38,393 nt of DNA from Oscillospiraceae bacterium (lineage in GTDB: Bacteria > Bacillota > Clostridia > UBA1381). The translations under genes and the position numbers were made by a program. Each line of letters starts with the position of its first letter. Position 1 is the first letter of the stretch. Positions 949 to 38,186 of this stretch are shown piece after piece. The stretch covers positions 1 to 38,393 of the forward strand of contig SVJN01000005.1 of NCBI GenBank assembly GCA_015068965.1, written 5' to 3'. The notes beneath the pieces are model-generated. The model saw only the letters and a list, made by a program, of their open reading frames with translations, had not been told where the DNA came from and made no database searches.

Positions 949-1077
949 TCGTAATACCCAACAAAGTTATTAGCCCATTTTATTGCTACCTCCACAATCG
1001 AACAACCCGATATATAAAAAAGCTTCTGATCGAAGCCCCGCCTGCGGGCGTGAGATTAAGGAAGCAATTTTGTTATT

Positions 1078-1119
1078 CCAGAAATTACAACATAAATGTT
1101 GTAATTTCCTATATAATAA
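1078..1119. repeat. 42-bp palindromic dispersed repeat, copy 1
   Basis: The core at 1081-1108 is a perfect inverted repeat with 13-bp arms (GAAATTACAACAT and its complement) around a central AA. It is followed by CCTATATAATAA. The same 42 bases recur at 38101-38142 with a single difference (A/G at 1111 versus 38134). Both copies sit immediately beyond the terminator of a leftward operon. This is probably a small repetitive element; function unknown. Confidence 0.8.
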
Positions 1120-1158
1120 AAAAGCAGGGGGTGTAAAAAACTCAGTTTTTTACACCCC
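1116..1158 (-). terminator. Rho-independent terminator of the GH2-ROK-SIS operon
   Basis: The perfect 13-bp stem has arms at 1128-1140 (GGGGTGTAAAAAA) and 1146-1158, with a 5-base loop. Read leftward, the stem is followed after three bases by a run of six T's. It is about 75 bp downstream of the SIS gene stop. Confidence 0.75.
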
Positions 1159-21341: not shown

Positions 21342-21516
21342 AACAAAGCGGCTTCGCCGCAACCGCTCCATAAAATTATCGTGTACTTTGAACTGTTACA
21401 GAGCGGTAAGAAGAAGCATAACGCTTTGTTACGCCCATGTGCGTTTCCGCTATTAGCGGAAAATTTCGCACGGGCATTCAATTCTTTTTACTTTATAGGA
21501 ACGAAGTTTCCTATAA
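21342..21516 (-). other. Structured intergenic segment upstream of pyk (candidate leader RNA or repeat element)
   Basis: Several nested inverted repeats pack into 175 bp: AACAAAGCG/CGCTTTGTT (21342-21350 with 21422-21430), a GCGG-CTTCG-CCGC hairpin inside it, ACCGCTC/GAGCGGT (21362-21368 with 21401-21407), a long hairpin at 21433-21476 with the perfect inner arms TTTCCGCT/AGCGGAAA, and CTTTATAGGAA/TTCCTATAAAG (21491-21516). It lies between the pfkA terminator and the pyk ribosome binding site. No matching riboswitch class was recognised and no clear promoter was found. Confidence 0.5.
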
Positions 21517-21519
21517 AGC

Positions 21520-21559
21520 AAAAAAGGTGCCTTCCACAAATTCCCAGGAAAGACACCCT
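21520..21559 (-). terminator. Probable terminator downstream of pfkA
   Basis: GGTGCCTTCC (21526-21535) pairs imperfectly with GGAAAGACACC (21547-21557). Leftward, the stem is followed by six T's (21520-21525). It would separate pfkA from pyk partly or fully. Confidence 0.6.
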
Positions 21560-37948: not shown

Positions 37949-37967
37949 GGGCGGATAATATCCGCCC
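37949..37967. repeat. REP-like short palindrome
   Basis: GGGCGGATA (37949-37957) and TATCCGCCC (37959-37967) form a perfect 9-bp inverted repeat around a single A, followed by TACAA. GC-rich palindromes of this style are common dispersed repeats in gut Clostridia. There is no T-run, so a terminator role for the M16 operon is unlikely. Confidence 0.55.
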
Positions 37968-37983
37968 TACAATCACAAGGAGG

Positions 37984-38118
37984 ATTGCATACTTTGTTGA
38001 TTGTGTCAAGAATAATAAGCAACCGGAAATTGTAACTCCCGAAAGCTCAGAAAACAGCATCAAACTGATTGAGCGAATTTTAGAAAAAGCCATTATATTA
38101 CCAGAAATTACAACATAA
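37984..38118 (+). pseudogene. C-terminal remnant of a Gfo/Idh/MocA-family oxidoreductase
   Basis: The plus-strand frame reads IAYFVDCVKNNKQPEIVTPE followed by SSENSIKLIERILEKA. This is the typical C-terminal end of Gfo/Idh/MocA sugar dehydrogenases, where a YFVDCI-like segment, a lysine/proline turn and an ESA-like helix occur. There is no start codon in frame and the rest of the protein is absent; a REP-like palindrome lies immediately upstream and the 42-bp repeat supplies the last codons and stop. It is called a decayed fragment. Confidence 0.6.
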
Positions 38119-38142
38119 ATGTTGTAATTTCCTGTATAATAA
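38101..38142. repeat. 42-bp palindromic dispersed repeat, copy 2
   Basis: Identical to 1078-1119 at 41 of 42 positions. The perfect 13-bp arms span 38104-38131. It interrupts the 3' end of the oxidoreductase remnant and its last two bases overlap the accA terminator. Confidence 0.8.
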
Positions 38143-38186
38143 CAACCCCCAAGCCTCAGACAAGCATCTGATGTTTGGGGGTTGTT
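38141..38186 (-). terminator. Terminator of accA
   Basis: AACAACCCCCAA (38141-38152) and TTGGGGGTTGTT (38175-38186) are perfect 12-bp arms, with a smaller CAGA/TCTG hairpin in the loop. It starts 3 bp after the accA stop and ends leftward in TTGTTATTATA. Confidence 0.7.

Follow-up and report, generated by a model that had tools for sequence, protein, structure and literature searches.

A probable miniature mobile element inserted between stop codons and terminators in an Oscillospiraceae genome and its relatives

Results

The palindrome and its surroundings

The window, a stretch of 38,393 nucleotides from an Oscillospiraceae bacterium, carries two copies of a 42-base palindromic repeat, one at 1078-1119 and the other near the far end (Table 1). 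The two copies differ by a single mismatch (CCTATATAATA versus CCTGTATAATA). The 13-bp arms GAAATTACAACAT and ATGTTGTAATTTC flanking AA and the TATAATA on the right were seen just as the original prediction described them. That each copy lies beside the terminator of a leftward operon held for copy 1, where the predicted stem is followed by CTGCTTTTTT, and was less secure for copy 2, since no clear T-run is present and the terminator scan was silent there. The flanks beyond the 42 bases had been called unrelated, which is true of the window pair but not in general, as the left flank of copy 1 (1015-1077) is itself repeated in the genome.

Two further features lie close to copy 2. An open frame at 37990-38118 reads ...LIERILEKAIILPEITT up to a stop codon placed within the second palindrome; it had no Pfam match and resembles what is left of the 3' part of a lost gene. 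At about 37950-37970, just 3' of an M16 peptidase gene, is GACGGGCGGATAATATCCGCCCTACA, a repeat of the RAYT-associated type.

Table 1. Features of the element and its neighbours in the window
Feature	Position	Strand	Evidence
Full-length element copy: TAAAAAAGCTTC ... GTTATTCC, palindrome, CTATATAATAAA	1015..1120	+	97-100% identity to most other full genome copies; model R1, 118 bits
Left end TAAAAAA; TAAA also at the right junction and in the empty target	1015..1021	+	Alignment of 97 copies; empty sites
Terminator-like hairpin of the element, then T-rich tail	1019..1039	-	Terminator scan
Right-hand hairpin (core of the 42-base palindrome); arms vary by species with complementarity kept	1081..1108		Core search, arm comparison, fold
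Right end CTATATAATAAA, continuing into the A-tract of the host terminator	1109..1120	+	Copy alignment, empty sites
Hairpin predicted as the terminator of the SIS/ROK/glycoside-hydrolase operon (leftward), adjoining the element	1128..1158	-	Terminator scan, Pfam
Second window copy: solo palindrome and right end, no left half	38101..38142	+	Sequence comparison
AACAACCCCCAA ... TTGGGGGTTGTT, a long inverted repeat immediately beyond the stop codon of an accA-like gene (leftward); probable terminator, no clear T-run	about 38141..38186	-	Sequence; Pfam ACCA; absent from terminator scan
Copy of the second palindrome family, TTTATAGGAACGAAGTTTCCTATAAAG, right end of a related element	21492..21523	+	Pattern search, 75 genome places

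Copies and structure of the element

The host genome (G000; 2.3 Mb in 165 contigs, 86% complete) was searched for the 28-base palindrome core, which was found at 27 forward places with up to 3 mismatches, in addition to one degenerate full element; the reversed control gave 0. The genome thus holds about 28 palindromes in 2.3 Mb, more than the two of the window. Nearly all oriented copies extend left into TAAAAAAGCTTCTGATAGAAGCCCCGCCTGCGGGCGTGAGATTAAGGAAGCAATTTTGTTATTCC and have CTATATAATAAA as their right end. The repeat unit is about 96-108 bp (~106) long and contains no genes. As the palindrome is one hairpin in the right-hand part of this larger element, the 42 bases had been mis-delimited when they were taken as the whole unit.

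We counted 25 full element copies in the host genome and several solo palindromes besides, among them copy 2 of the window. Further solo or partial copies are on contigs C154, C158, C145 and C96, left-half copies are on C90 and C108, and a copy on C149 has no palindrome. Tandem units have one TAAAAA in common. At one place (L091, C96:8448-8503) two left ends stand head to head with the right half missing, giving a perfect-looking, terminator-like palindrome.

The element begins with TAAAAAAG and ends, beyond the hairpin, with CTACATAATAAA. Copy alignment revealed no terminal inverted repeats (left TAAAAAAGCTT; right, as reverse complement, TTTATTATGTAGG). Subterminal hairpins are present: one lies near the right end, and the left domain folds too. 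The plus strand was predicted to fold far better than shuffled sequences (z -6.0), into the left domain and the right hairpin, whose outer stem (TTTTGTTATT / AATAATAAA) returns the right end onto itself; the minus strand ends with a hairpin and TTTTTT in the terminator scan. Differences among the arm sequences kept RNAalifold from finding the right hairpin in a MAFFT alignment, for which the consensus was poor. No Rfam family matched at or above its gathering score, and the only matches were two to snoRNAs at chance level.

Position relative to stop codons and terminators

Simple stem rules were used as terminator criteria. By these rules 59 of 90 copies had a hairpin that began no more than 13 nt from the right end, compared with about 8% of random positions. 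Among copies of relatives the count was 49 of 66 (p 2e-36 against random positions), and at their left end it was 6 of 66. Adjacency was weaker in the own genome of the window (10 of 24; p 3e-5 against about 8% at random), where the difference between right and left ends was not significant. When a T-run was demanded as well, the counts were 48 of 90 at the right end, 5 of 90 at the left end and 130 of 3420 at random positions.

Copies are concentrated extragenically, at gene ends and intergenic sites. In 32 of 79 copies an open frame of at least 60 codons ends at the element's own TAA; the same holds for 71 of 1575 control TAAs. The insertion site is a TAAA(AAA), usually made up of a stop codon and the A-tract 5' of a terminator stem. 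The right end faces that stem, the TAA of the left end often provides the stop codon anew, and the terminator is left intact.

Empty and shared insertion sites

Orthologs of the gene on the left were collected within the same genus for ten loci and inspected for empty sites. Clean orthologous empty sites were obtained for five of the ten, each consisting of stop codon, A-tract and terminator stem. Occupied G092 reads aaacag, element, AAATCGGAGC, versus aagcagTAAAAAATCGGAGC in empty G089; aaacag, element, AAATCGGAGCTTAAATGCTCCGATTTTTTTT in G092 corresponds to aagcagTAAAAAATCGGAGCTTACTTGCTCCGATTTTTTTT in G089, and G034 reads the same as G089. Empty sites were also seen for L172 (in G091, G034, G002 and G017), L159 (in G089), L163 (in G034, TGAAAAAGTGAACGG) and L161 (in G089, which has a decayed copy across the terminator at this locus). 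Most orthologous genes have the terminator alone, without the element.

Four intergenic sites were occupied in two species, and in all four the copies were in opposite orientation with the terminator between them. The terminator stems themselves had diverged in three of these pairs, so identity of the terminator is inferred from position. The copies in opposite orientation are independent insertions under a constant rule, with the right end toward the stem. Together with the many copies, the empty sites and the terminator adjacency, they lend good support to one option of the original prediction, a mini-element that targets terminators.

Distribution and related repeats

The metagenome-assembled genomes are incomplete, and each species is represented by one genome. 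With a covariance model, 17 of 70 genomes of the family, in 10 of 17 genera, were found to contain relatives, at up to 23 copies per genome. Occurrence was patchy within a single genus: G002, G090 and G092 had 23, 22 and 19 copies, and the model had no match in G017, G034 or G093. A 21-base signature from the right end of the core matched 39 places, spread over 13 of the 95 order genomes, and none in the reversed control. Named records with relatives, such as RUI406 and RGIG8725, are metagenome-assembled, several of them from deer gut. G002 and G006 have identical stretches in common (L061/L062, L077/L078), which suggests cross-contamination of one assembly. No match was found in viral contigs by pattern search or in plasmid and phage records by distant BLAST, and no description of this element turned up in the literature that we searched.

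Copies within a genome are alike, and the hairpin arms vary among species groups (ACAACA/TGTTGT, TCTCA/TGAGG, ATTGC/GCAAT), mostly still complementary. Such a pattern is what spread within genomes leaves behind.

Elsewhere in the order, other families have the same core behind payloads that differ, each lying within a covarying A-tract/T-tract stem (AAAAAAGTC/GACTTTTTT, AAAAAAGTT/AACTTTTTT, AAAAAAGATTT/AAATCTTTTTT, AAAAGTG/CACTTTT and AAAAAAGCTT/AAGCTTTTTT; this table was read by hand, and the automatic per-position tally mis-indexed the row starting AGAAAAG, L241). Units also stack head to tail, with equal payloads in G002 and G060 and different payloads in G041.

A second palindrome family, TTTATAGGAACGAAGTTTCCTATAAAG, is more abundant in the host genome (75 places, one of them in the window). 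Its palindrome is the right end of a larger repeat starting GAACAAAGCGGCTTCGCCGC, and the element studied here often follows directly after it. Variants with both arms changed occur (TTGATAGG/CCTATCAA and TGTATAGG/CCTATACA). Another repeat, GGCTGTTGCGTGAAACATTTTTGTGTATA, was noted at L094, L006, L022 and L025; it forms long inverted arms around REP-like repeats and in many cases adjoins the element on its right.

Candidate enzymes

No transposase gene with the ends of the element was found in the genomes searched. The host genome has one Y1 gene above the cut-off; it is of REP type and flanked by other repeats, so the REP-associated transposase that the original prediction proposed to look for exists here with a different repeat. 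G002 carries 23 copies, yet only an IS200 gene with different ends, and the IS200 ends in G091 and G092 differ from those of the element as well. Core-related repeats are present in G060 and G011, where no Y1 match was obtained. Within one genus, full-length IS200 genes occurred in the four genomes with at least 8 copies and in 0 of 3 copy-free genomes, a pattern broken by G000, G024, G027 and G089. The Y1 transposases examined were either weak REP-type genes carrying other repeats or IS200 genes whose ends differ; the Y1 proteins of G000 C88 and G091 C5 are candidates.

RAYT-like genes with what appear to be their own REP-like repeats within the coding sequence were noted at L082 (G000 C88; for example GGAACGACACATAGGTCGTTCCCTACA), L081, L084, L088 and L089.

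Discussion

The element is very probably mobile and inserts beside terminators at a TAAA(AAA) target. Because it has subterminal hairpins and no terminal inverted repeats, we favour single-strand transposition of the IS200/IS605 or REP-like kind, acting in trans; that a Y1 enzyme moves it in this way is close to an even call. We read the palindrome as the hairpin at the right end of a small mobile element that is non-autonomous. Its folded single strand would be cut and joined at TAAA-like sites, presumably by a tyrosine transposase (Y1, of the IS200/IS605 or REP type) supplied in trans. The central TTTTGTTATT can form pairs with the AATAAA on the right and weaker ones with the A-tract on the left, and might act as the guide for both cuts. 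Terminators may be used because insertion there harms neither gene, and also because the enzyme or the exposed strand presents a hairpin next to an A/T tract.

Alternatively, the element could be a MITE that depends on a DDE transposase for movement, in which case TAAA would be a target-site duplication of 4 bp. TAAA occurs at both junctions, the empty sites are compatible with its duplication, and copies within another repeat (TTTCCTA, then TAAAAAAG...AATAA, then TAAAG) permit at most 4 bp; no target-site duplication longer than this ambiguous TAAA was found. However, TAAA is also the invariant end of the element, so a 4-bp duplication and an end that mimics the target are inseparable, and both the absent terminal inverted repeats and the fixed orientation toward the terminator stem make a DDE transposase unlikely.

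Insertion might also be RNA-mediated, a transcript ending at the minus-strand terminator of the element being copied back into A/T tracts beside terminators, as for group IIC introns. The hairpin and TTTTTT that end the minus strand, placed 3' of the terminator T-tract, do have group IIC polarity. By inspection, however, the element has neither the 5' end of a group II intron (GUGYG) nor a domain V. An RVT_1 gene was found only in G000, G010 and G092, and in neither G002 nor most copy-rich genomes; reverse transcriptases did not correlate with element copies and were rejected as the mover. We regard this route as improbable. One reverse transcriptase of ~360 aa with a retron-like look (L218, G000 C64:4713-5285) lies on a contig with two element copies.

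It is still less probable that the repeat is not mobile now and is a structured 3' element (acting as terminator booster, as mRNA 3' end or as processing signal) that selection maintains and gene conversion keeps uniform. Its position after stop codons, its strong fold and its covarying hairpins would suit such a role, but most orthologous genes do with the terminator only, shared sites have opposite orientation, and three genomes of the same genus lack it. A site for a nucleoid or regulatory protein with the palindrome as operator is hardly credible: the palindrome is near-perfect and occurs several times per genome, but its arms differ in every species group with complementarity kept, which fits a hairpin better, and copies are located at gene ends rather than promoters. 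Neither the protein-binding site nor the processing signal that had been put forward gained direct support in this analysis, and the element may have a secondary effect on RNA.

Returning to mobility by insertion at terminators, we tentatively place the element in an order-wide superfamily of modular, terminator-specialised mobile elements. Each unit would combine an A-tract/payload/T-tract domain, with payloads unrelated between lineages and a covarying closing stem, with the conserved hairpin core; units would stack head to tail, and the inserting enzyme would read TAAA plus terminator stem and so restore both stop codon and terminator. Its empty sites make it a clear example of a miniature element for which stop codon plus terminator serve as a safe harbour in gut Clostridia, a group from which few such repeats have been described. 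Through it, many operons gain sequence between gene and terminator, and it could alter 3' ends and read-through. It is also a natural probe for a putative terminator-reading integration enzyme.

Comparison with known systems

Group IIC introns recognise a DNA hairpin such as a terminator as a determinant of their target (PMC3898094). The element likewise has a terminator-type hairpin at its target, but it differs in showing no intron features and no linked reverse transcriptase. Pneumococcal SPRITE, RUP and BOX are also short intergenic repeats of Firmicutes; SPRITE is terminator-like, and the three cluster and insert into each other (PMC10969869). They belong to another host group, and the descriptions consulted do not mention insertion at the stop codon and A-tract of a terminator for them.

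REP/REPIN sequences and their RAYT (TnpA-REP) enzymes offer a further parallel, as they too are multi-copy extragenic palindromes with species-specific arms and preserved complementarity. REPs have GTAG 5' of the hairpin (PMC2817692; PMC8266576); the head that precedes REP palindromes can also be GTGG. On the minus strand the core of the element often has GTAG in the same place, as in many relatives (CCTAC), whereas most copies of the host genome read ATAG. In contrast to REPs and REPINs, the element is a ~106-bp asymmetric unit, neither a REP nor an inverted REP pair. No RAYT gene bordered by the element turned up in the genomes searched (the host genome being 86% complete), and a different repeat accompanies the local RAYT.

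Non-autonomous IS200/IS605 derivatives (PATE-like) are comparable in another way. Unlike the IS200/IS605 family, the element had no autonomous copy with its ends in the genomes searched, and the ends of IS200 in the same genus differ. A fixed short target sequence at the junctions, with no proven duplication, may also link it to the PATE-like derivatives, with which it shares the absence of terminal inverted repeats and the hairpins near both ends.
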